Part shown: positions 6,626-56,737 of the stretch, piece by piece
Numbering within the stretch: the stretch's first letter is position 1
Layout of the letters: each line of letters starts with the position of its first letter
Source: Chloroflexota bacterium
GTDB taxonomy: Bacteria > Chloroflexota > Anaerolineae > Aggregatilineales > Phototrophicaceae
Assembly: GCA_016223085.1 (NCBI GenBank)
Contig: JACRPS010000002.1
Location: 1 to 64,000, forward strand
Direction of reading: 5' to 3'
Length of the DNA: 64,000 nucleotides
The notes under the pieces: model-generated
Database searches by the model: none
Told to the model about the DNA's origin: nothing
What the model saw: only the letters and a program-made list of their open reading frames with translations
Made by a program: the position numbers and the translations under genes

Positions 6626-6742
6626 ACAGCCGAGGCGGCAGTATGACGACTGCCAACCGATGGTAAAGCGCCGGTCGAAAAATGGCCGTTCAACATGTAT
6701 AGTGAAGGCGTGAATGTCCGCCCACACCGAAGGAATGAGCCG

Positions 6743-9700
6743 TTGAGCCGCCGTTTATCTGATGTGCTGATTGCTGTCCTGCTGTTCGCGCTGCCGCTGG
6801 TGCTGTTCTGGCAGCAAACGCTGGGCGGGCGCACGCTGCTGCCAACCGAAAACCTGTACCAGTACGAACCCTACGCCACCTACCGCGAAGTGGTCAAAGC
6901 GCCGGCGATTCCGCACAACGCGCTGCTGTCCGATCTCGTTTTGCAGAATATGCAGTGGAAAGAATTCATCCGGCAGAGCATCGCGGCGCGGGAAATCCCG
7001 CTGTGGAATCCGCACCAGTTCGCTGGGATTCCGTTCCTGGCCGCCGGGCAGCAGTCGGCGCTGTACCCGTTCAGCATCCTGTATTACGTGCTGCCGCTGA
7101 CTGCCGCCTACGGCTGGTTCACGGTGGTGCAGTTGTGGCTGGCGGGCGTGCTGATGTTCCTGTTCCTGCGTGGGCTGGGCATCGGGCGCTTCGGCGCGTT
7201 GGTCGGCGGCGTGGTGTATCAGCTTAACGGCTTCTTCATCGCCCACGCCGTGTTCCCGATGATCGTCGGCGCGGCGGTGTGGCTGCCGCTGATTCTGCTG
7301 ATGATCGAGTTTATCATCCGGCAGAAGCCAATGTTTGGCCGACCGTCCAGCGTACCCTGGGTGATCGTTGGCGCGGCGGCGCTGGGCTGCAACGTGCTGG
7401 CCGGGCACGTCGAGATCACCTATTACACGCTGCTGATCGCAGCCTATTATGCGGCGGCGCGGCTGGTATGGGTGTGGTGGCGAACCCCTCCCCCCAACCC
7501 CCTCCCCGTACAAGGAGAGGGGGTAACGCCTCCCCCGTTGACGGGGGAGGTTGGGAGGGGGTCAAAATGGAAACACCTCATTTCACGTGCCGGGTGGCTG
7601 GTGGCGATGGTGGCGCTCGGCCTCGGCCTGGGCGCGGTGCAGTTTATCCCGCTGTTTGAATTCGCCAGCCTGAACTACCGCGATGGCCGCACCACGCTGG
7701 AGCAGGTGCTTGGCTGGGCGCATCCCTTACGCGACGTGGTACAGTTCGCCCTGCCCAATTTCTACGGCAATCCGTCGCATCACGCCTATTTTGACGTGTT
7801 CACCGGGCAGACCGTCCCCGCGACAGTGAACGCGCTGGGCGAGTCCATCACCACAATTGACTGGGGCATTAAAAATTACGTCGAAGGCGCGCTGTATCTA
7901 GGTATCCTGCCGCTGGCGCTGGCAGCGTTTGGGCTGGTGGCGCGGCGAACCCCTCCCCCTAACCCCCTCCCCGTACACGGAGAGGGGGAAAAGCCGGAGG
8001 TGGCTTCAGAAACCCCTCTCCCTGAGGGAGAGGGACAAAGGGTGAGGGCCTTACCGCCTTACCGTCTGATCTTCGCGCTGCTGGCACTGGCCGGGCTGAC
8101 GTTTATGTTCGGCCTGCCGACGTATGCGCTGCTGCATTACGGGCTGCCGGGTTTCAATCAGCTTCATTCGCCATTCCGCTGGATTTTCGCGGTGACGTTC
8201 AGCGTGGCGGCGCTGGCGGGCTTCGGGGCTGAGGCGCTGACATCCCTTACATCGGCTGTAAGGTCTGGCGTAGGGGAGGGTCTGAGACCCTCCCCTACGG
8301 GTTTCATCGTGCGGTGGGCGCGGCGCTTCGGTTGGGCGCTGATGATCGTGGGCGGCGTTACGCTGATCGCGTTGCTCCTCTCGCGGCTGTTTTACCCGCA
8401 GATCGAGCCGCTGGTGGAGCGCATTTTCCAATCGCTGGCGGGCGCAACCAAATCCTACGCCGACGCGCGTATGTTCTACAGCTATCAATTTACGAATGTG
8501 CTGACGTTCGGCGTGATGACCCTCGGCGCGGGGGTGGTGTTCTGGCGGGCGGCCAAACCCCTCCCCCCAATCCCCTCCCCGTATACGGAGAGGGGGGGCA
8601 TACGGACACGATATATCATGTCCCTACAGCAAATGCCGATATGGCAGGCTGTTGCCATCGGCCTGGTGGCGCTGGATTTGATGATCGCGTCGTGGGGCTT
8701 TAATCCCGCGTCCGACCCGGCGCTGCTGCATTTCACGCCGCCGGCGATTCAGTGGCTGCAACAGCAGCAGACCGATGGGCCGTTTCGTTATATCACACTG
8801 GATGATCCGACCAAGCCGCCACTGTTTAACGCCAACATGACGTGGCGCTACGGCCTGTACGACGTGCGCGGCTACGAGAGTATCATCCCCAGGCAGTACG
8901 TGGAGTTTATGCAGCAGCTTGCGCCGCAGACGCAACTGGACTACAACCGCATTGCGCCGCTGTACACGGCTTACCCGCCGGAATATAACTTCAGCTACGT
9001 GGACGCGCTCAAGTCGCCGCTGCTGGGGCTGCTCAACGTGCGCTACGTCATCACCCACAAAACGACGACACTGCTGGATGAACTAACAACCAGCAGCGAC
9101 CCGCGCCGGATTTCGCCTGCCTACCGCCTGGCGTATGAGGACGAAGCCGTGCGTATTTGGGAGCATGGTTATGCCCCGCGGGCGTGGGTGGCACACCTCA
9201 AAACGGGTGAACGCCCGGAAGTGGACGGCTATTATGGCATCGGCTTTGATGTGACCTGGGGAGGCGACACCGGGCGCGAAAAAATCCTGCACGCGAACCT
9301 GTATCAAGCGATTAATTCGTGGCTAATCGTGAGCGAGACGTATCTGCCCGGCTGGCGCGCCTTCGTGCGTCCGCGCGGCGGAAGCAGCGACTCGGAACGC
9401 CCGTTAGAGGTCGAGCGCGTATTCGAGAATTTCCAGGGCGTGAACCTGTCGCCGGACGTGCTGCGGGCGGCGTTTCAGCCGATCTACGACACGCTGCCAG
9501 ACGCGCAAAAACTCGCGCTGGATAACCGGCAGGTGACGGTGCGGCTGGTGTACAGTCCCGCGAGTTTTCAGGTGGGGCTGTTTGGCTCGTTCATCAGCGG
9601 CGTGGTGCTGGTATTTATGGCCGGGGTGTGGGTGTGGCGGCTGGTCGTCCGGCCTGAGAGGGCGGTCAGCGGCGCGGCGGTGGTCGCCAAAAACAGCCTC

Positions 9701-11260
9701 GCGCCGATCATCCTCAACCTGTTCAACCGGGGCATTGATTTTGGCTTCGCGTTTATCATGCTGCGCATCCTGGGGCCGGAAGGCGCGGGTATTTATTACT
9801 ACGCGGCGTTTATCTTCGGCTGGTTCGACATCTTCACCAACTTCGGCCTGAACGTGTTTTTGACCCGCGAAGTCGCCCGCGACCGGACGCAGGCGTGGCG
9901 TTACCTGTTTAACACCAGCGTGCTGCGGCTGGCGCTGATGCTGGTCGGCGTGGCGCTGCTGGCGGCGTTCCTGGCGGCGCGGCAGTCCTTGCCGGGCAGC
10001 GACCCGCTGACCCACGAGGCGGTGCTGGCAATCATCCTGCTGTATATCGGCCTGTTCCCGAATACCTTAAGCACCGGGTTATCGGCGCTGTTTTACGCCT
10101 TTGAGAAGGCGGAAATCCCGGCGGCGGTGACGACGGTGGCGACGATCAACAAGGCGGTATTTGGCGTGGCGGCACTGGCGGCGGGTTTTGGCGTGGTTGG
10201 TCTGGCGAGCGTGAGTATTGTTACCAACGTCGTGACGCTGGCCGTGCTGGCGTGGAGCGCAAGGGGGATGATGCGACCTCACCCCCCGGCCACCTCTCCG
10301 ACCGGTGTAGACCGGGGGGAAGAAGTCAAACGGCAGCGCGATGGCGCTGGTAGGGGCGAACCGCCGGTTTGCCCCTACGAAGATCGCTCCAGAGGTAGTC
10401 GCCTGTACCGACCCGATTTCCGGCTGATGCGCGGGATGATCGGCGAAAGCTGGCCGCTGATGCTCAATCACTTTCTGGCGACCATCTTCTTTCAGGTGGA
10501 CGTGGTGATTATCGAAGCGATCCACGGCGCGCGCATGGTCGGACAGTACAGCGTTGCCTATAAGTGGGTGGCCGCGCTGAACGTCATCCCCGCGTTTTTT
10601 ACGATGGCGCTGCTGCCGGTGATGTCGCGCCAGGCGCACGAAAACCGCGAGGCGCTGCGACGCAACTACCGGCTGGCGATCAAGCTGCTGGTCAGCGCGG
10701 CGCTGCCGCTGGCGGTGGTGTTTACGTTCCTGGCCTACGTGCTGACCGGCATCCTGGGCGGCGCAGAATACCTGCCGGACGGCGCGATTGCCACACAGTT
10801 GATGATCTGGAGCATCCCAATTGGCTGGATGAACAGCCTGACGCAGTATGTGCTGATCGCGCTCGATTTGCAGCGGCGCATCACGCGGGCGTTTTTTATC
10901 GCCGTGACGTTTAACATCGTGGCGAATCTGCTGTTTGTGCCGGAATACGGCTACCGGGCGGCGGCGCTGGCAACGATTGCGTCGGAAGCGGTGCTGCTGC
11001 TGCCGTTCGCGCTGCTGCTGCGCGGCGCGGTGGGGTCGGTGGGCTGGCTGCGGATTCTGGTAAAGCCGCTGGCCGCGACCGGCGTGATGCTGGCCGTGTT
11101 CCTGCTCGGCTGGAACGCGCAGCCGGTGCTGACGCTGATCGTCGGCACGCTGGCCTACCTGGCGGCCCTGCTTGCACTCCGGCCACTGGACGCGGACGAG
11201 TGGTCGCGGCTTCTGCCGCTGCTGCCAGCGCGGCTGCGGCGGGTGAGGGCAGAGGGATGA
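6743..11260 (+). CDS. Giant membrane protein: YfhO-like half fused to a Wzx-like flippase
   Basis: The N-terminal half (to about residue 960) looks like the YfhO family of GT-C-like membrane proteins: many TM helices, an extracytoplasmic loop with ENLYQYEPYATY, then a soluble domain (FRYITLDD ... GYESIIPRQYVEFM). The second half (from about 9670) is a polysaccharide flippase of the MATE/Wzx type: VAKNSLAPIILNLFNRG, GPEGAGIYYYA, and a dozen TM helices. A single frame covers both, so one chain could glycosylate and flip a lipid-linked glycan; that is inference. Five loops are made of interspersed-repeat DNA read in frame (7483-7566, 7949-8046, 8269-8299, 8556-8631, 10283-10378). TTG at 6743 follows GAAGGA at 8 nt; ATG at 6695 is an alternative lacking a clear ribosome site. 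A terminator follows. Confidence 0.85.
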   Translation: MSRRLSDVLIAVLLFALPLVLFWQQTLGGRTLLPTENLYQYEPYATYREVVKAPAIPHNALLSDLVLQNMQWKEFIRQSIAAREIPLWNPHQFAGIPFLAAGQQSALYPFSILYYVLPLTAAYGWFTVVQLWLAGVLMFLFLRGLGIGRFGALVGGVVYQLNGFFIAHAVFPMIVGAAVWLPLILLMIEFIIRQKPMFGRPSSVPWVIVGAAALGCNVLAGHVEITYYTLLIAAYYAAARLVWVWWRTPPPNPLPVQGEGVTPPPLTGEVGRGSKWKHLISRAGWLVAMVALGLGLGAVQFIPLFEFASLNYRDGRTTLEQVLGWAHPLRDVVQFALPNFYGNPSHHAYFDVFTGQTVPATVNALGESITTIDWGIKNYVEGALYLGILPLALAAFGLVARRTPPPNPLPVHGEGEKPEVASETPLPEGEGQRVRALPPYRLIFALLALAGLTFMFGLPTYALLHYGLPGFNQLHSPFRWIFAVTFSVAALAGFGAEALTSLTSAVRSGVGEGLRPSPTGFIVRWARRFGWALMIVGGVTLIALLLSRLFYPQIEPLVERIFQSLAGATKSYADARMFYSYQFTNVLTFGVMTLGAGVVFWRAAKPLPPIPSPYTERGGIRTRYIMSLQQMPIWQAVAIGLVALDLMIASWGFNPASDPALLHFTPPAIQWLQQQQTDGPFRYITLDDPTKPPLFNANMTWRYGLYDVRGYESIIPRQYVEFMQQLAPQTQLDYNRIAPLYTAYPPEYNFSYVDALKSPLLGLLNVRYVITHKTTTLLDELTTSSDPRRISPAYRLAYEDEAVRIWEHGYAPRAWVAHLKTGERPEVDGYYGIGFDVTWGGDTGREKILHANLYQAINSWLIVSETYLPGWRAFVRPRGGSSDSERPLEVERVFENFQGVNLSPDVLRAAFQPIYDTLPDAQKLALDNRQVTVRLVYSPASFQVGLFGSFISGVVLVFMAGVWVWRLVVRPERAVSGAAVVAKNSLAPIILNLFNRGIDFGFAFIMLRILGPEGAGIYYYAAFIFGWFDIFTNFGLNVFLTREVARDRTQAWRYLFNTSVLRLALMLVGVALLAAFLAARQSLPGSDPLTHEAVLAIILLYIGLFPNTLSTGLSALFYAFEKAEIPAAVTTVATINKAVFGVAALAAGFGVVGLASVSIVTNVVTLAVLAWSARGMMRPHPPATSPTGVDRGEEVKRQRDGAGRGEPPVCPYEDRSRGSRLYRPDFRLMRGMIGESWPLMLNHFLATIFFQVDVVIIEAIHGARMVGQYSVAYKWVAALNVIPAFFTMALLPVMSRQAHENREALRRNYRLAIKLLVSAALPLAVVFTFLAYVLTGILGGAEYLPDGAIATQLMIWSIPIGWMNSLTQYVLIALDLQRRITRAFFIAVTFNIVANLLFVPEYGYRAAALATIASEAVLLLPFALLLRGAVGSVGWLRILVKPLAATGVMLAVFLLGWNAQPVLTLIVGTLAYLAALLALRPLDADEWSRLLPLLPARLRRVRAEG
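7483..7566. repeat. In-frame repeat insert 1 in the YfhO-flippase gene
   Basis: CGAACCCCTCCCCCCAACCCC, CTCCCCGTACAAGGAGAGGG and a GTTGACGGGGGAGG arm form two linked hairpin-like units. In frame they read RTPPPNPLPVQGEGV and a Pro/Gly-rich continuation, placed between two TM helices. Confidence 0.8.
7949..8046. repeat. In-frame repeat insert 2 in the YfhO-flippase gene
   Basis: This has the same CGAACCCCTCCCC...CCGTACACGGAGAGGGGG unit as insert 1, followed by a second CCCCTCTCCCTGAGGGAGAGGG hairpin. It reads RTPPPNPLPVHGEGE and then TPLPEGEGQRVR. Only a few residues differ from insert 1. Confidence 0.8.
8269..8299. repeat. In-frame palindrome (insert 3) in the YfhO-flippase gene
   Basis: A perfect 15-bp inverted repeat around one G, with arm CGTAGGGGAGGGTCT. 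The same palindrome, differing only in the central base, is intergenic at 56709-56737. Confidence 0.85.
8556..8631. repeat. In-frame repeat insert 4 in the YfhO-flippase gene
   Basis: A CCCCTCCCC...CCGTATACGGAGAGGGG unit is joined to a GGACACGATATATCATGTCC near-palindrome, so members of two repeat families lie side by side in the coding sequence. They read KPLPPIPSPYTERGG and then IRTRYIMSLQ. Confidence 0.75.
10283..10378. repeat. In-frame repeat insert 5 in the flippase half
   Basis: A CCCCCCGGCCACCTCTCC...GACCGGGGGG element is followed by a GTAGGGGCGAACC palindrome (10350-10378). The coding product is a polar loop (RPHPPATSPTG ... GRGEPPVCPYED) between TM helices. Confidence 0.75.
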
Positions 11261-11358: not shown

Positions 11359-11380
11359 AGCCCCCTTCAGGGGGCTTTTT
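11359..11380 (+). terminator. Terminator after the YfhO-flippase gene
   Basis: AGCCCCC-TTC-AGGGGGCT followed by TTTT. It is the hairpin part of composite repeat copy 2 (11359-11410), whose second part is CGTTCAGCCGGAGGGCTTTC plus a GCCTCCGGC arm. Confidence 0.8.
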
Positions 11381-11410
11381 CGTTCAGCCGGAGGGCTTTC
11401 AGCCTCCGGC
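11359..11410. repeat. Composite terminator repeat, copy 2
   Basis: Hairpin plus CGTTCAGCCGGA block, parallel in order and spacing to the copies at 963-1022 and 37198-37255. Confidence 0.75.
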
Positions 11411-11424
11411 GGGCGCGCTGTTCT

Positions 11425-12939: not shown

Positions 12940-12977
12940 GGCGAGTCGCTCTCCGCAGCCTGTGATACAATCGGGTT

Positions 12978-13005
12978 GTAGGGACACGATATATCGTGTC
13001 CTTAC
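12978..13005. repeat. GTAGGGACACG palindrome
   Basis: GTAGGGACACGATA and its near-perfect inverse (one mismatch near the end) between the divergent GH13 and zinc-ribbon genes. Confidence 0.8.
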
Positions 13006-13057
13006 AGACAGATTACAGCTTTTATCGTACCGGACAAGTGTTAGCAGCGCATTATTG

Positions 13058-15396: not shown

Positions 15397-15448
15397 GTAG
15401 GGGCGAACCGCCGGTTCGCCCCTACACTGGACACGATACGGCGTGTCC

Positions 15449-31561: not shown

Positions 31562-33943
31562 TTATCGGCTTACCTGGCAATCACGCCAGATGAAGCTGTA
31601 TGGATCTGCGCCAGGGCGCACGCCGGGGGCGGTAAGCTGGAACTCGCCGGTGGTTAACCGCCAGACAGCGACCGTTCCCGCCGGTGTCTCGGCCCGTGCC
31701 AGCAGCGTATTCACGGCGGGCACGCCGACCGCCTGCACCTGTTCAGGCGTGACGATCAACACCAGCCGGCCTTCACTGCGGTCGTTGATCTGGTAGACGA
31801 AGTAAGACTCCGCCATGCAGTAGACGGCTGCCGACGCACCGCGATCTTTCGGATGCTGGTTGAGGCGGTTATCGCCCGGCGAAAACGGCGGTTCGTTGTA
31901 TGGGTTGGCGGGGAAGTCGTCGCACTCATCGCCAGCGCCATCCCCGTCGGCGTCGGCCTGGCTCGCATTCGCCAGCAGGGGGCAGTTATCCGCCCCGGTC
32001 ATGATACCGTCTCCGTCCACATCCTGGTTACTGACGCTGTCGCAGGCATCGCCAATCCCGTCGCCATCCCGGTCGGCCTGGTCCGGGTTAGCAACCGCCG
32101 GACAATTATCAACCGCGTTCTCGACTGTATCGCCATCGGTATCCCTGTTATTCACGCTGTCGCAGGCATCGCCAAGGCCATCACCGTCAACATCAGCCTG
32201 ATCGGGGTTAGCCACCGAGGGGCAGTTATCAACCGCGTTGTCCACTGTGTCTCCATCGTCATCACCGGTAGGGGTGCTGTCGCAGATATCCCCCACGCCG
32301 TCGTTGTCCATGTCAGCCTGATCGGTGTTCGCAACCGCCGGGCAGTTGTCAATGGCGGTGTCCACCGTATCGTTGTCGTCATCACCGGTGGGGGTGCTGT
32401 CGCAGGCATTACCCAAACCATCACGGTCCGTATCGGTTTGAGTCGTATTGGCAACCGCCGGGCAGTTGTCGGTGGCGTTGTCCACCGTATCGTTGTCGTC
32501 GTCGCCGGTGGGGGTGGTGTCGCAGACATCCCCCACGCCGTCGTTGTCCATGTCAGCCTGATCGGTGTTCGCAACCGCCGGGCAGTTGTCAATGGCGTTG
32601 TCCACCGTATCGTTGTCGTCATCGCCGGTGGGGGTGCTGTCGCAGACATCCCCCACGCCGTCGTTGTCCCTGTCGGCCTGATCGGTGTTCGCAACCGCCG
32701 GGCAGTTATCAACGGCGTTGTCCACCGTATCACCGTCATCGTCGCCATTGGGGGTGGTGTCGCAGGCGTCGCCCACGCCGTCATTGTCCTTATCCGCCTG
32801 ACCGGGGTTAGCAACCGCCGGGCAGTTGTCGGTGGCGTTGTCCACCATATCGTTGTCGTCGTCGCCGGTGGGAGTTGGGTCGCACAGATTGCCGAGGCGG
32901 TCGTTATCGGTATCGGCCTGATCGGCATTTGCCACAAACGGACAGTTATCGGCCAGGTTCGCGACGCCGTCGCCGTCCTCATCGGGGTCGCAGGCGTTGC
33001 CCAGACCATCGCCGTCCTGATCGGCCTGGTCAGCATTGGCGTTCACTGGACAGTTATCGCTGCCATCGGCAAGGCCATCGTTATCATCGTCCGGGTCGCA
33101 GGCATTGCCCAGGGCGTCGCCGTCCGAGTTGCTATCGCCGGCATTTGACAATAGTGGGCAGTTATCCACGAAGTCGGGAATACCGTCACCATCATCGTCG
33201 CTGTCACAGGCATCACCCAACCAGTCGCCGTCCAGATCGGCCTGATCGGGGTTAGGTACCCACATGCAGTTATCGCTGCCATCCAGCACTGTGTCATTAT
33301 CGTCGTCCGGGTCACAGGCGTTCCCCAGGCTGTCTCCATCCACGTTGGCCTGGTCATCATTTTTATTCAGGGGGCAGTTGTCGCTGGCGTCCGGCACGCG
33401 GTCATCGTCATCGTCGGGGTCGCAGGCGTCGCCCAGGCTGTCGCCCCAGCCCCAGAAGGGGTCGTAGTCCGTGTTCTTCTGGTCGGGGTTAGCGACGGTG
33501 GGGCAATTGTCGTTGGCATCGGCGATACCATCGCTGTCCGCGTCCGGCGGCGCACCCATCGTGATCGTGAGCGTGTAGGTGCCGCGCTGCGTACTCCCAT
33601 TGTTCAGGTCAAATTGGTAAGCGCCATTCTGATCGGTCGTAAACTGGGCAATATCCTTGCAACCACTCTCATTCCAGAATCCCTGACCAATCTCGATGCC
33701 GTTGGGACGGTAAATCCGCATGGCGAAAAACACGGATGAACACAGGTTGACGGTAATCGGCTGGCCGATCACGAGGTTAAACCGGTGTGTCACCTGCTGC
33801 ACCGCGCCGAGTTCACCGCTGGCGGTGAAGACCTGTCCCTGCTGCTGCGCCGGGCCGGCCAGCGCAGCCGAGATGGCGAACCCCAGCGACAGCAGGACAG
33901 CGAGTACAGCCCCAATAGCAGCAGTACGAGAACGATAAAGCAT
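31562..33943 (-). CDS. Exported thrombospondin type 3 (calcium-binding) repeat protein
   Basis: A 793-residue exported protein: signal peptide (MLYRSRTAAIGAVLAVLLSL), a beta-rich N-domain to about residue 145 with paired Cys, then about 16 thrombospondin type 3 repeats of the form DNCP-x-VANPDQ-x-D-x-D-GDGVGDACD, each binding Ca2+ through Asp side chains. The first repeats are 36 residues long and the later ones 40. A C-terminal domain of about 110 residues (YFVYQINDRSEGRLVLIVTP ... WRDCQVS) is unrelated to the repeats. It probably forms a rigid Ca-stabilised stalk on the surface. ATG at 33943 is preferred over GTG at 33955 because AGGAG fits its spacing. Confidence 0.92.
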   Translation of the reverse strand: MLYRSRTAAIGAVLAVLLSLGFAISAALAGPAQQQGQVFTASGELGAVQQVTHRFNLVIGQPITVNLCSSVFFAMRIYRPNGIEIGQGFWNESGCKDIAQFTTDQNGAYQFDLNNGSTQRGTYTLTITMGAPPDADSDGIADANDNCPTVANPDQKNTDYDPFWGWGDSLGDACDPDDDDDRVPDASDNCPLNKNDDQANVDGDSLGNACDPDDDNDTVLDGSDNCMWVPNPDQADLDGDWLGDACDSDDDGDGIPDFVDNCPLLSNAGDSNSDGDALGNACDPDDDNDGLADGSDNCPVNANADQADQDGDGLGNACDPDEDGDGVANLADNCPFVANADQADTDNDRLGNLCDPTPTGDDDNDMVDNATDNCPAVANPGQADKDNDGVGDACDTTPNGDDDGDTVDNAVDNCPAVANTDQADRDNDGVGDVCDSTPTGDDDNDTVDNAIDNCPAVANTDQADMDNDGVGDVCDTTPTGDDDNDTVDNATDNCPAVANTTQTDTDRDGLGNACDSTPTGDDDNDTVDTAIDNCPAVANTDQADMDNDGVGDICDSTPTGDDDGDTVDNAVDNCPSVANPDQADVDGDGLGDACDSVNNRDTDGDTVENAVDNCPAVANPDQADRDGDGIGDACDSVSNQDVDGDGIMTGADNCPLLANASQADADGDGAGDECDDFPANPYNEPPFSPGDNRLNQHPKDRGASAAVYCMAESYFVYQINDRSEGRLVLIVTPEQVQAVGVPAVNTLLARAETPAGTVAVWRLTTGEFQLTAPGVRPGADPYSFIWRDCQVSR

Positions 33944-34281: not shown

Positions 34282-37107
34282 ATGAACCGATACGCGCGTT
34301 TCCAACTGCTGGTTGTTTTAAGTCTGTTGTTTCTACTGCTGTATGCTGGCATCGCTTTTGACCCCTCGCGGGCCAGGCAGGAGCAGCCAACCGCGGCGGC
34401 GGAAACAACCGTTGACCCGACTACCATCCAGAGCGAATCGCTGCCTACCGGCGCGCCTGATATGTCGGGACAGATCGTGCCGGAACAGACGTCGGTCGTG
34501 GACAGCGTGCCAACGGCGGAAGCCACGCGGGAAGTACCCCCGGTTGAAACCACCGCTGAAGCCGGCCCGGAAGCCACTCCTGAAGCCACCGCCGAAGCAA
34601 CCACCGTTCCGACACAGCCGCCGCCTGACGTGCCACCGCAAACCCGACCAGAAGTCACCGCAGCAGTGTTGGCGGAGGAAACCGCTGTTCCAACGCCAGT
34701 TGAAGCCCAACCGCGCGAGTTGATCGTTGTGCCGCAGGCCGCAGAGCCGGACGTTGAACTTAGTGTTACCTGCCCGGCGCCGGGAGTAGCGCGGTTTACG
34801 CTGCGCAACTCCGGCGGACCGATGACCAGCCCTGGCACCTATACCGTTTCCGACCCGCCGCGCACAGCCAGTTTCCAGCTTGCCACCGGCGCGTCCATCT
34901 CGTTTGAAGCTGCCGGTAACGCCACCGTGACTGCCATTTATAATTCGCCGTCGTCCGGCCAGGTCACGCTGCGGGCGACAGGGTCGTGTACGATTGAGCC
35001 GACCCGCACACCGCCGCCGACGAACACGCCCGGGCCAACCAATACCCCGCGCCCAACCAATACCCCGGGACCAAGCAACACCCCGCGCCCGACGAATACG
35101 CCGGGACCAACCCGCACGCCACGTCCGACCAATACACCAACGATTACGCTGACGCCATCCATCACGCCGACCGCGTCAAATACGCCCCTGCCGACCAATA
35201 CACCAACGATCACCCTGACGCCGACAGATACACTCACGCCGACGATCACCCTGACGCCAACGATCACGCTCACGCCGAGCATTACGCCCACGCCGTCCAT
35301 CACGCCGACACCGAGCAACACGCCCACGCCATCGAATACGCCGACCAACACCAACACCCCGACGCCGACGCATACGCCGACGCCAACCAATACGCCAACA
35401 GCAACGGCAACAGTGGCTGACCCGTTGATCGAACTGGGTGTGACCTGTCTGCGAGCCGCGCCCGGTCAGCCAGTACAGGCGCGCTTCCGGCTGCGGAACG
35501 TCGCGGCGGATATGACCTCGCCAGGAATTTATACAGTTCGTGAGCCGGGGCAGCCAGTATGGTCAGATGAGTTTTTGCTGGAAGCCAATGAAGTGTTTGA
35601 CATCATCGCTGCTGGCAACGCCACCGTCACCGCGCTGTACAGCTCGCCTACCTTCAAGGATGTGTTCCTCAGCGTGACTGGAACCTGTCTGCCGCCGGTT
35701 GGCGTAACGCTCACGCCGACGCCGACTCCTTCGATCACGCCGACGCGCCAGCCTCGGCCAACGGATACCCCACCACCGCCGCCTCCGCCGCCGCCACCAC
35801 CGCCGACGGATACGCCGGCACCGCCACCGCCGCCAACCAATACGCCAGTGCCACCACCACCGCCGACGAATACGCCGGCGCCGCCACCACCGACGCTGCC
35901 ACCGCCGACGGTCGTGCCGCCAACGGTGGTGCCACAGGCCGGCAGTCTGGTCTGCGCGGATGTCATTGAGACAGGTGGCAGTGGTTTCCCGTTGATTGAT
36001 ATGTCGGCCTGCGCGCCGGACACGGCAGAAATGGCACGCGCCCCCTGGACACCGATCACGGTTGCGCCGGCGCAGTGCCCGGATTGGCTGGTCTACCATA
36101 CCGACATGACCGGCGATTGGGAGATTTTCCGCCTGGGTGAACTGCCGGACGGCGTGCAGGCCGACCCGAACCTGTCGCGCGGGGTGGGCCGCCGGGTATA
36201 CGATCTGATGCCCAGCCGGTCGCCCGACCAGAAGTGGGTGGCCTTCACCAGCAACCGCGATGGCAACTGGGAAATTTACATCTCCGCAGTGGAAGAAGAT
36301 AACATCCAGCGCGTGACCTATAATACCAGCGCCGCCGATCTCGACCCGGCCTGGTCACCGGTCAACGGCCAGATTGTGTACGAGTCGAATCGCAACGGCA
36401 ACTGGGACCTGTACCTGTTCGATGTGGCAATCGGCGCAGAAACCCGCCTGACCAACGCGCCCGCCAACGAGGTCAATGCGTTCTGGTCCTACGACGGTCA
36501 GAAGATTGTGTTCCAGAGCGACGCCGAAGGCTTCTGGCAGATTTACGAACTGACGATTGCCACCGGCGCGGAACGGCGACTTAGCGACGGACAGGGGGAC
36601 GACCACGCGCCGCAGTACTCCAGCGACAACCAGCTCATCGCTTTCCGTTCCTTCCGTGATGGCGATAACAGCGTGCTGTACATCATGAACGCCGATGGCA
36701 GCGACGTAGAGCGCATCTCCGACACTGGCGGCTACGCGCTCAATCACGCCTGGTCGCCGGATGGCCGCCTGATCGCTTACCAGTCCAATCTGGACGGCGA
36801 CGACGATATTTACGTCTACGATCTGGACACCGGTACGACACGGCTGCTGACGGATAACACGATTGAGGACTACGCCCCGACCTGGTTCTGTTACTCGCCA
36901 GTGCTGGTGTTCACATCAGATGTGACCGGCGATTCGAACCTGTTCAGCAACCCGGCGCTGCCGATTGACGCGCCGCCGATACTGGTCGAAAACGAGGCCA
37001 GCCAGCTTACGTTTGCGCCGGAGGCCGACCAGTATCCGTTAGCCATGCCGCCGGAAGAAAACGCCAGCCGGGGCGACCAACTGCCCTCGCCGCTGAAGAA
37101 TAAATAA
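34282..37107 (+). CDS. Thr-Pro-rich surface protein with TolB-like propeller
   Basis: A 941-residue protein with an N-terminal membrane anchor or signal ([20 protein letters not shown]). A disordered Pro/Thr/Glu stretch leads to a beta domain (about 155-235), a long Thr-Pro linker, a second copy of the same domain (about 380-470), a Pro-rich linker and then a beta-propeller (about 600-900) with repeated (S)PD(G)Q/K(I/W)V(A/F)-x(S) motifs such as [20 protein letters not shown]. Propellers of the TolB/WD40-PD40 type bind proteins or sugars. The two beta domains share [21 protein letters not shown] and AAGNATVTA(I/L)Y-SSP. It is exported and should stand off from the cell on its linkers. Confidence 0.88.
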
Positions 37108-37197: not shown

Positions 37198-37219
37198 AGC
37201 CGCCTGGAAGGCGGCTTTT
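37198..37219 (+). terminator. Terminator after the TolB-propeller gene
   Basis: AGCCGCC-TGGA-AGGCGGCT followed by TTT(G)CG. It is the hairpin part of composite repeat copy 3. Confidence 0.7.
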
Positions 37220-37255
37220 GCGTTCAGCCGGATAGCTTTCAGCGTCTGGCGGCGC
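37198..37255. repeat. Composite terminator repeat, copy 3
   Basis: Hairpin plus GCGTTCAGCCGGATAGCTTTC and a GCGTCTGGC arm, with the same order as copies 1 and 2. It is preceded by an extra hairpin-like GAGCTGGAAGCAGGC as at 920-937. Confidence 0.75.
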
Positions 37256-45289: not shown

Positions 45290-46276
45290 ATGCAAACGTG
45301 GTACGCAGTTGTAATCGTAATGATACTCGTTTCTGTCGCTGCCTGCCAGCCGACTATTGTCCCAACGGCAACAGCCACCGTGCCACCGGCCACGCCGCTG
45401 GCGCAGGCCAGCCCGCGTCCGACGCAGACGCCGCGCCCGATTCTCCAGCCAACCGACACACCCCTGATACCGACCATAGGGGCGAACCGTCGGTTCGCCC
45501 CTACTGGCGTAACCCTTATACCGATCATCCCCACGCCGGTGCTGCTGGCTGCTGCGCCAGCCCTGCCGCCGCAGGCGTTTCGTGTCGGCCAGTCGGCGGC
45601 AGGGCGTGACATCCTGGGCTGGCGCATCGGTACGGGTGAACGGGTGCTGCTGCTGGTCGGCGGTATCCACGCCGGTTACGAGGCCAATACCGTGATGCTG
45701 GTGCGGGAACTGATTGACCATTTCCAGCGCGCACCTGCCGACGTGCTGCCCGGCATCACGCTGATTCTGGTGCCGGTCGCCAACCCGGATGGCCTCGAAC
45801 GTGGGCGTGTGGCCGAGGGACGCTTTAACGGCAACGGCGTGGACCTCAACCGCAACTGGGGCTGCGAGTGGTCGGCGGAGGCGTACTGGAAAAGCAACCG
45901 GGTGAACCCTGGCAGCCAGCCGTTTTCCGAGCCGGAAACGCGGGCGCTGGCGGCACTGGTGGGCGAGGTGCGCCCGGCAGCCGCCGTGTTTTACCACAGC
46001 GCCGCGCATGGTGTGTTCGCCGGCGATTGTCAACCGGGGGGCGGTGTGTCGGGTACGCTGGCCGCCGTACTGGGCGAAGCGGCGGGCTATCCCTACGGCG
46101 AGCCGTTCAGCGCCTATCAGGTGTCCGGCACCGCGCCCAACTGGCTGGATGGTCAGGGTATCCCGGCGGTGGACGTGGAACTGACGGGCACGCGCGACAG
46201 TGAGTTTATCCCCAACCTGCGCGGGGTGATGGCCGTGCAGCGATGGCTGACGGGCGGCCTGGATGCTGGACGGTGA
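45290..46276 (+). CDS. M14 zinc carboxypeptidase-like lipoprotein
   Basis: A 328-residue lipoprotein (signal with VAAC, Cys19), a Thr-Pro linker and an M14 peptidase domain. Zinc ligands: HAGYEAN (HxxE) and the later His in YHSAAHG; substrate-binding NPDGLERG and DLNRNWG; catalytic Glu in VELTGTRDSEF. It should cut C-terminal residues from peptides, perhaps cell-wall peptides, at the outer face. The linker contains an in-frame GTAGGGGCGAACC-type palindrome (45477-45504), giving IGANRRFAPTG. The ATG at 45290 has GGAG upstream. Divergent from the lipoprotein gene. Confidence 0.9.
   Translation: MQTWYAVVIVMILVSVAACQPTIVPTATATVPPATPLAQASPRPTQTPRPILQPTDTPLIPTIGANRRFAPTGVTLIPIIPTPVLLAAAPALPPQAFRVGQSAAGRDILGWRIGTGERVLLLVGGIHAGYEANTVMLVRELIDHFQRAPADVLPGITLILVPVANPDGLERGRVAEGRFNGNGVDLNRNWGCEWSAEAYWKSNRVNPGSQPFSEPETRALAALVGEVRPAAAVFYHSAAHGVFAGDCQPGGGVSGTLAAVLGEAAGYPYGEPFSAYQVSGTAPNWLDGQGIPAVDVELTGTRDSEFIPNLRGVMAVQRWLTGGLDAGR
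45477..45504. repeat. In-frame TAGGGGCGAACC palindrome in the peptidase linker
   Basis: TAGGGGCGAACCG and its near-perfect inverse (centre GT), the same palindrome as 15397-15425. It is read in frame as a polar stretch within the linker. Confidence 0.85.
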
Positions 46277-52018: not shown

Positions 52019-52047
52019 GTAGGGGCATGTCGCCGACATGCCCCTAC
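52019..52047. repeat. GTAGGGGCATGTC palindrome
   Basis: A perfect inverted repeat with arm GTAGGGGCATGTCG, between greA and the convergent exported protein. It could end transcription from both sides. Confidence 0.75.
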
Positions 52048-55097: not shown

Positions 55098-55108
55098 TAG
55101 TTGGTAAA

Positions 55109-55155
55109 CCTCACCCTAACCCCTCTCCATCAAGTGGAGAGGGGAGGTGGCGCGA
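55109..55155. repeat. Intergenic CCCTCTCC/GGAGAGGG element
   Basis: CCTCACCCTAACCCCTCTCC, a short loop and GTGGAGAGGGGAGG: the intergenic form of the element that is read in frame at 538-586, 7483-7566, 7949-8046 and 8556-8631. Confidence 0.7.
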
Positions 55156-55783: not shown

Positions 55784-56704
55784 ATGATTATCTCCGCCAG
55801 CTACCGCACCGATATTCCGGCCTTTTACGGCGACTGGTTCATGAACCGGCTCGATGCCGGGTACTGCCTGGTCGAAAATCCGTACAACGGCCAGCTGTAC
55901 CGTGTCAGCCTTCGCCGCGAGGACGTGAGCGCGTTCACCTTCTGGACGAAGAACCTCGGCCCGTTCATGAACATGCTGGCGGAAGTGCACCGGCGCGGTT
56001 ATCCGTTTCTGGTCGGCTACACCATCACCGGCTACCCGCGCGAACTGGAATCGTCGGTGGTGGAAACACGCCGTGCGGTCGAACACATGAAGTGGCTGGC
56101 GGCGGACTACGGCCCCCGCGTTCCCGTGTGGCGCTACGATCCGGTGCTGTTCACCTCGCTGACAACGTTCGATTTTCACCGGGAAAATTTTGAACGCCTG
56201 TGCGCGGCGCTGGAAGGCGTGACTGACGAAGTGGTCATTTCGTTCACGCAGATTTACCAGAAAACGCGGCGGAATACCGATTGGGCGGCGCGGCGCTTTG
56301 GCTTCACCTGGGAAAATCCGCCGGACGAGATCAAGGCGGCGCTGGCCGCCGAACTGGCGCAGATGGCCGCCGCGCGCGGGGTGCAGCTTACCATCTGCGG
56401 CCAGCCGGAATTCGCCGTGCCCGGCACGCAGGAAGCGCGGTGTATTGACGCCGGGCGTCTGTCCGACATTGCTGGCTATTCGATCACGGCAGGCAGCAAG
56501 AGTCACCGTGCGGTGTGCGGCTGCCACGCCTCGCGGGACATCGGCGCGTATGATACCTGTCCGCACGGCTGCGTGTACTGTTATGCCGTGCAGCGTCCGG
56601 CGAAGGCTAAACAGCACTACCGCCAGCATAATCCGTTTGGGGAATTTTTAGTGGAAAAGCATAACACAGAGATACAGAGATTCAGAGACACAGAGAGATT
56701 ATAA
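55784..56704 (+). CDS. DUF1848-family protein with a Cys cluster
   Basis: A 306-residue protein matching the DUF1848 family: starts MIISASYRTDIPAFYGDWFMNR, then FWTKNLGPFMNML in the middle and CGCHASRDIGAYDTCPHGCVYCYA near the end, with five or more Cys that suggest an Fe-S cluster of radical-SAM type (the family is described as related to radical SAM proteins). The C-terminal residues KHNTEIQRFRDTERL are encoded by a repeat tract (ACACAGAGATACAGAG), so the natural end is probably shortly before it. The role is unknown. Confidence 0.85.
   Translation: MIISASYRTDIPAFYGDWFMNRLDAGYCLVENPYNGQLYRVSLRREDVSAFTFWTKNLGPFMNMLAEVHRRGYPFLVGYTITGYPRELESSVVETRRAVEHMKWLAADYGPRVPVWRYDPVLFTSLTTFDFHRENFERLCAALEGVTDEVVISFTQIYQKTRRNTDWAARRFGFTWENPPDEIKAALAAELAQMAAARGVQLTICGQPEFAVPGTQEARCIDAGRLSDIAGYSITAGSKSHRAVCGCHASRDIGAYDTCPHGCVYCYAVQRPAKAKQHYRQHNPFGEFLVEKHNTEIQRFRDTERL
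56660..56700. repeat. ACACAGAGATACAGAG tract read as a protein C-terminus
   Basis: AACACAGAGATACAGAGATTC and AGACACAGAGAG: a direct-repeat family also found at 58660-58705 and 59418-59456 and, in reverse complement (CACCTCTGTGTCTCCG), at 56741-56778. Here it is read in frame as the last 15 residues of the DUF1848 protein. Confidence 0.75.
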
Positions 56705-56708
56705 ACCT

Positions 56709-56737
56709 GTAGGGGAGGGTCTCAGACCCTCCCCTAC
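56709..56737. repeat. GTAGGGGAGGGTCT palindrome
   Basis: A perfect inverted repeat of 14-bp arms, the same as the in-frame palindrome at 8269-8299 but for the central base. It lies within a region flanked on both sides by ACACAGAG tracts in inverted orientation. Confidence 0.85.

Follow-up and report, generated by a model that had tools for sequence, protein, structure and literature searches.

How do five stretches of repeat DNA come to be read as protein within a single membrane protein gene, and what determines the places where they are kept? The question is raised by a gene in the window (the whole stretch of 64,000 nt of DNA analysed here), which derives from a 6.03-Mb genome in 37 contigs (G000). 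The gene encodes a 1521-aa protein with the Pfam domains YfhO, Polysacc_synt and Polysacc_synt_3. The initial annotation had proposed that it contains five frame-preserving inserts between transmembrane (TM) helices, all made of one and the same intergenic repeat DNA.

The five inserts and their repeat classes

The gene and its inserts (I1 to I5) are located as follows:
6695..11260, plus strand: fusion of a YfhO-like GT-C membrane protein with a polysaccharide flippase (1521 aa, single ORF)
7483..7566, plus strand: I1, inverted pair of triplex-like motifs (7484-7521 on the minus, 7528-7561 on the plus strand), reads RTPPPNPLPVQGEG... (loosened motif scan)
7948..8052, plus strand: I2, inverted pair of triplex-like motifs (7949-7986 on the minus, 8014-8048 on the plus strand), reads RTPPPNPLPVHGEG... 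(loosened motif scan)
8269..8299, plus strand: I3, double-foot palindrome GTAGGGGAGGGTCTGAGACCCTCCCCTAC, peptide VGEGLRPSPT (palindrome scan)
8553..8632, plus strand: I4, triplex-like motif (8557-8594 on the minus strand) and degenerate GTAG...CTAC palindrome (8601-8628) (repeat and motif scans)
10278..10385, plus strand: I5, GC-rich hairpin and double-foot palindrome (10350-10378), peptide GRGEPPVCPY (palindrome scan, fold)

A single ORF of 1521 aa indeed spans all five inserts, and the nearly identical peptides of I1 and I2 were found as they had been described. The single repeat family had to be rejected. Instead, the inserts belong to two repeat classes without relation to each other, or combine them. 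I1, I2 and the first half of I4 are triplex-like motifs (a pyrimidine arm and two purine arms). GTAG...CTAC palindromes make up I3 and the second half of I5 and, in degenerate form, part of I4. Genome-wide repeats are read in frame in the loops, as the initial annotation had held, only not those of one family.

In AF2 models (mean pLDDT 89.3 and 88.1), all five inserts are predicted as coil between helices, with ten-residue mean pLDDT values of 48 to 78, in agreement with the proposed placement between TM helices. The predicted coil covers residues 264-288 for I1 (block pLDDT down to 54), 416-455 for I2 (down to 53), 524-534 for I3, 621-641 for I4 (down to 52) and about 1194-1241 for I5 (48-54). 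Low-occupancy blocks of the orthologue alignment lie at the same five sites (aa 268-287, 424-451, 523-538, 622-634 with 638-644, and 1197-1235). By helix count, and with the N-terminus taken as inside, all five loops would be cytoplasmic; for this count we assumed the topology of GT-C/YfhO proteins, in which the soluble domain and the first large loop face the outside.

The window contains 14 palindromes with an arm score of at least 11, not all of which belong to repeat families; Markov controls gave 0, 0 and 0. Window copies related to the inserts, with one further double-foot palindrome, are:
12977..13006, no strand assigned: palindrome of the GGACACGATATATCGTGTCC type, as in I4 (repeat and palindrome scans)
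15397..15425, no strand assigned: copy of the I5 palindrome class (repeat and palindrome scans)
45476..45504, no strand assigned: copy of the I5 palindrome class (repeat scan)
52019..52047, no strand assigned: double-foot palindrome (palindrome scan)
56709..56737, no strand assigned: second window copy of the I3 palindrome, 97% identical (repeat and palindrome scans)

Over the 6.03 Mb of the genome, the narrow pattern GTAGGGGC...GCCCCTAC has 336 matches and a wider pattern 635, compared with 0 and 1, respectively, for the reversed patterns. The wider pattern is matched 0 to 112 times in the 16 genus mates. As in double-foot REPs, the elements carry 5' GT[AG]G and 3' C[TC]AC at the hairpin ends and occur dispersed in high copy number. 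In 76 copies of 28 nt, the foot positions are paired in 74, 65, 75 and 74 of 76, the pattern having fixed the feet (up to one substitution) and left the inner pairs free. The arms of these copies stay complementary by means of different pairs; position 7/22, for example, is G-C in 39 and A-T in 31.

The loosened triplex motif occurs six times in the window, five of them inside the YfhO-flippase gene, and not at all in five Markov controls, the pattern having been loosened after inspection of the inserts. The sixth motif is the only one outside the gene:
55108..55143, minus strand: triplex-like motif (loosened motif scan)

The strict published consensus (CCCTCNCCCN3-6GGGNGAGGGN3GGGNGAGGG) is absent from the window and from the orthologue loci (L001-L079). 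A simple pyrimidine-rich pattern (class A) has 29 matches in G000 and 0 to 61 in the genus mates, with 0 to 3 for the reversed control.

Recurrence in orthologues and other host genes

For the orthologues, the best 80 of 121 confirmed places were taken. These correspond to 79 distinct loci (L001-L079), so that the alignment holds 80 genes including that of the window. The gene is one main open frame in 78 of the 79 loci (some cut by a contig end) and is split over two frames in L066; the best named orthologue is found in an Aggregatilineales MAG. For the sequence outside the loops, comparison with the three nearest relatives (L001, L048 and L002) gives a dN/dS of 0.17-0.20, which shows that the gene is under purifying selection; with L013 the value is 0.29. 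Inside the loops, dN/dS is 0.41-0.75, at a near-saturated dS above 1.

The orthologous loops have median lengths of 24, 28, 22, 24 and 22 residues, compared to 43, 53, 37, 43 and 61 in the window gene. They are at least 10 residues shorter than in the window gene in 69/76 (I1), 66/78 (I2), 52/79 (I3), 63/79 (I4) and 77/80 (I5) of the rows, the window row included. An exact empty site of a recent insertion was not found. The initial annotation had reasoned that orthologues with the same loops made of unrelated DNA would speak for ancestral loops and against insertion. The loops are indeed shared, and their positions are therefore ancestral; yet they are mostly shorter, and a minority of them are filled with other repeats, so that this check gives a mixed outcome.

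In the same 80 genes, 44 palindromes were detected, 30 of which lie in the five loops and are distributed over 15 of the 80 genes; codon-shuffled versions gave nine palindromes in all. Of the 14 outside the loops, one is a run of N. The clearest exceptions to loop confinement are palindromes near residue 839 in L019, L067 and L074. Four loose classes of motif were defined, namely A, B (GTAG palindrome), C and D (CACAGAG/ACGCAAAG), and their patterns were applied identically inside and outside the loops. The motif density in the loops exceeds that of the rest of the gene 48-fold for A, 55-fold for B and 42-fold for D, and class C has three matches in loops and none elsewhere; the corresponding Fisher p values ignore relatedness. 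Leaving out the window gene, L001, L002 and L048, the ratios are still 30 (A), 42 (B) and 36 (D).

At least one class motif is present in a loop of 25 of the 80 genes, that of the window among them, and when the labels (site by class) are mapped by parsimony onto a tree built from the masked alignment, 65 changes are needed (52 without the window clade), a count that includes losses, decay and doubtful labels. Both are upper values, as the classes are loose and overlapping and some matches are doubtful; the 15 genes with strong palindromes represent the stricter count. The class D matches of L002 and L048 at I2, for instance, are class A DNA, as are some two-substitution B matches (e.g., L001 I2, L011 I4 and L012 I4), and a few matches such as L007 I1 look like chance. 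Single elements can be followed between relatives: the first half of I2 is common to the window gene, L002 and L048, and L001 holds the same element at I3. L003, L004 and L007 have in-frame copies of the CACAGAG class in their loops.

In low-occupancy columns of the alignment, repeats make up 1319 of 7392 nt in the loops and 0 of 8310 nt elsewhere, a comparison that is partly circular because the inserts themselves create such columns. With looser column cuts, 8/10662 and 52/17220 nt outside the loops are repeat. The low-occupancy regions outside the loops vary by means other than repeats. The alignment block 918-941 is of low occupancy and contains no repeat motif. An earlier BLAST comparison of loop segments with 0.85 Mb of flanking DNA was weak (39/392 loop versus 135/2361 control segments with an outside match) and its controls were flawed (some overlapped loops, and C105 alone had 30 matches); the motif classes were used instead.

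The inserts are not limited to this gene. In L001-L079, loosened triplex motifs number 22 in the orthologue (313 kb), none in other genes (450 kb) and seven in intergenic DNA (165 kb), and B elements number 17, four and nine, respectively. Per kb, the query gene is compared to intergenic DNA at 0.070 versus 0.042 (A) and 0.054 versus 0.055 (B), based on gene calls from our own hexamer model, which places only one of the query gene's two palindromes in the gene, so that the intergenic counts may include coding copies. Among 96 B elements sampled in G000 (around listed sites and in the window), 13 lie in frame in coding DNA, although two of these calls (L094 1694 and window 32268) look like chance. 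A different gene model places 12 in other genes of G000, the same two included, and with that model contig-end rows were set aside (5/59 in L001-L079).

The in-frame hosts comprise DnaG, biotin carboxylase, aldehyde dehydrogenase, a THUMP-like methyltransferase, DUF2298 and PMT_2 membrane proteins and glycyl-tRNA synthetase (GlyRS), where the copy lies between the alpha and beta domains. In DnaG of G000 (L122:6134-6161), a double-foot palindrome is read as VGARHAVPLP in a linker. When DnaG is aligned from 13 of the 17 genomes, the element site corresponds to a linker that is variable in length and content, and the relative L182 seems, by eye, to keep a degraded palindrome copy.

PMT_2 proteins of G000 were picked regardless of repeats (51 matches, 43 above the Pfam cut-off). 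At least one in-frame element is found in 14 of these 51 ORFs, all 14 above the cut-off. In the PMT_2 stretches, PMT_2 coding DNA (92.2 kb) has 29 elements, other genes (63.2 kb) have three and intergenic DNA (19.7 kb) has 33, which makes PMT_2 coding DNA 6.6 times denser than the neighbouring genes (Fisher p 1.9e-4); in the PMT_2 listing of 45, most class C rows fall inside B elements that are also listed. A crude topology predictor placed 33 PMT_2 inserts 17 times inside, eight times outside and six times within a helix, leaving two unplaced. This inside:outside ratio equals the predictor's background, so a cytoplasmic rule can be proposed for the query gene only. For the query protein, the same predictor agrees with the helix count in putting the four YfhO sites and I5 inside, but it does the same for the periplasmic domain (residue 800), and adds helices.

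The YfhO/flippase paralogues give a mixed picture: two of four stretches in G000 are without an A or B motif and L229 and L231 have some, and none was found in eight paralogue stretches of relatives. The GT-C preference may stand for polytopic membrane proteins in general.

Probable spread and survival, and rival explanations

The most probable explanation, which we favour with fair confidence, is that the repeats spread, survive in flexible loops and decay into linker. Small repeats of at least two unrelated classes, each in many copies, would spread through Anaerolineae genomes, and selection would remove most insertions into coding DNA. Frame-keeping insertions would survive where 10-40 extra, mostly unstructured residues are harmless, presumably without effect on fitness. 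Such tolerant places may be the five YfhO-flippase loops, other GT-C membrane glycosyltransferases and the linkers of some soluble proteins. The inserts would then decay by mutation into ordinary linker and the same loops be refilled later, so that the loops would be old and their content young. I1 of L002 and L048, which looks degraded by eye, and the apparently degraded copy in DnaG of L182 suggest this direction from gain to decay.

Two observations sit less easily with tolerance. From G000, L080-L122 and the PMT_2 loci, 39 elements were taken that have 110 or more open codons on each side; 24 of them are 28 nt long, and 23 of these start at codon position 1. Of the remaining phases of this palindrome, one is closed by TAG and the third is stop-free; because this third phase is open, stop codons do not explain the bias, and neutral tolerance does not predict it either. 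In addition, the query gene is about as repeat-rich as intergenic DNA, which might argue against mere tolerance.

It could be asked whether the inserts are selected. The mRNA (or DNA) structures between the TM helices would in that case act as translational pauses or control elements for the membrane insertion of GT-C proteins, a reading we regard as unlikely. The predicted RNA folds of the inserts (-26 to -60 kcal/mol) would suit it, as would a gene density about equal to that of intergenic DNA, the confinement to five loops with near absence from other variable regions, and the presence of unrelated structure-forming classes at the same places. However, at least 55 of the 80 orthologues have no class motif in any loop, and the structures are therefore not required. 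Moreover, the loops evolve fast (see the dN/dS and dS above), class D is by eye not palindromic, and linkers of soluble proteins serve as hosts as well. Equally improbable to us is the more far-reaching form, in which the GT-C proteins of this clade would use hairpin and triplex repeats as replaceable cytoplasmic loop cassettes in a fixed codon phase, kept for pausing or membrane insertion, with unrelated families captured at the same sites. Far less credible still is that the loops are ancestral low-complexity linkers that converged by composition, with no insertion at all. In favour of such convergence, the loop positions are common to the orthologues and few parts of the protein vary as much as the loops. 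Against it, hundreds of copies of these palindromes are scattered through the genome, their arms are complementary through differing pair types and codon-shuffled genes do not produce them. The I3 element is furthermore present in the next relative and, at 97% identity, at position 56709.

Single-strand transposition of the palindromes is plausible; they may be mobilised by an HUH/Y1 single-strand transposase. A target duplication of at least 3 nt, as MITEs would show, was found in 0 of 102 copies (1.3 expected). Flank matches of 2 nt occur in 8/102 (4.8 expected), and the bases flanking the element are T/G or C/A in 45/102 (about 31 expected). The genome has two short Y1 genes, whose proteins both contain an HUH motif and YxxxQ (YIASQ and YIENQ, located by motif and not by alignment). 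A longer form of the element, E1, lies close to both genes, at distances of 44 and 66 nt from their domain matches. It has 59 and 57 half-site matches in G000, one in G052 and none in the other 15 genus members. The longer forms E1 and E2 (17 of 19 composites; two halves) have imperfect outer inverted repeats around a central palindrome, a MITE-like build.

A possible, though rather doubtful, reading that is compatible with spread and decay is the RAYT/REPtron, in which a dedicated TnpAREP moves the double-foot palindromes and in-frame insertion is a by-product. TnpAREP subclass 2.4 is described with both double-foot REPs and in-frame REP insertions (PMC6006769), and here E1 adjoins both short Y1 genes and the 3-nt target duplication is missing. 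In both short Y1 proteins, however, Gln occupies the place where TnpAREP has Asn, as in IS608 TnpA and not as in E. coli TnpAREP. G052 holds 112 palindromes without a short Y1 match, albeit in a draft of 590 contigs. The number of short Y1 genes was also rejected as a predictor of palindrome copy number, as the two do not correlate over the 17 genus members (Spearman -0.15, p 0.55). In a larger set, 3-nt flank matches occur in 0/39 intragenic-like elements and in 3/99 others, compared with 1.4 expected for the 99, and the triplex-like inserts would be left unexplained.

A longer Y1-like domain is present in all 17 genomes, and such long-frame matches recur across the genus. In L082, a Y1_Tnp-like domain lies at 501-611 of a long open frame, of which 616 aa are covered. 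Around the Y1 genes of relatives (L129, L131, L133, L134 and L135), there are separate 22-23-nt GC...GC hairpins, unlike the GTAG palindromes.

Relation to known repeats and further repeats of the window

The double-foot REPs of TnpAREP subclass 2.4 are reported to have GTAG at one end and CTAC at the other, to be high in copy number and to lie in frame in tnpAREP genes; loops and linkers are proposed there as tolerant sites, and Asn at the place of IS608 Gln131 is given as the TnpAREP residue (PMC6006769). The palindromes described here share the ends, the high copy number and the in-frame insertion. In contrast to that account of subclass 2.4, the main hosts are GT-C membrane proteins rather than the transposase gene, two element classes share sites, and neither short Y1 protein of G000 is a TnpAREP with Asn.

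GTAG repeats have been listed in Chloroflexi, and intragenic GTAG/CGTC REPs in many species, some genes having two inserts, with DNA replication genes among the hosts and loops or linkers suggested as sites (PMC3733652). The likeness lies in palindromes within protein genes and in a replication host (here DnaG), but the GTAG REP superfamily, as defined in that paper, has GTAG unpaired at one end, whereas here it pairs with CTAC. The word 'membrane' does not occur in the main text of PMC3733652. The Rickettsia palindromic elements, to which the initial annotation had likened the inserts, are mentioned in the same paper as palindromic repeats in frame in unrelated protein genes (PMC3733652); the parallel holds at the level of in-frame insertion.

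The intrastrand triplex motif TMECO is presented as a C-rich arm, a loop and two G-rich arms, occurring in inverted pairs and always intergenic in E. coli MG1655 (PMC4666352). The motifs found here follow a loosened form instead of the strict TMECO consensus, are triplex-like by sequence pattern and are read in frame. The enterobacterial RU-1/2/3 are likewise small mobile sequences (103-168 bp) with open frames inside genes, though recurrence at orthologous loops is absent from the abstract (PMC2759123).

In-frame REPs are thus already known. A search of titles and abstracts, with few subscription papers, returned no account of repeats that come back at equivalent loops in orthologues of a membrane protein, and none of a GT-C preference; within that search, both this preference and the repeated use of one loop niche by unrelated repeat classes are new. 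The five copies in one gene are the most obvious case of a wider habit in this bacterial group. Scattered reports of in-frame REPs can hereby be turned into a measurable process, in which one orthologous protein supplies natural replicates, its five loops serve as marked acceptors, several repeat classes act as donors and the variable regions provide the negatives. It illustrates a route by which non-coding repeats become protein sequence. Annotators should be aware that a database peptide like VGARHAVPLP or TPPPNPLP may stem from repeat DNA that is read through, and need not mark a domain.

The window also contains other repeats. CACAGAG-type repeats lie at 56655, 58659 and 59412. Another family comprises three 44-nt hairpin-like copies beside GGCTTTT, at 975-1018, 11369-11412 and 37209-37252. 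A tandem array with 120- and 108-nt units (13 copies) extends over 31915-33445; its minus strand reads acidic repeats, which we take to resemble calcium-binding repeats. From 35002 to 35934, the sequence repeats with a period of 18 nt and is of low complexity, with many CCG and ACG triplets.
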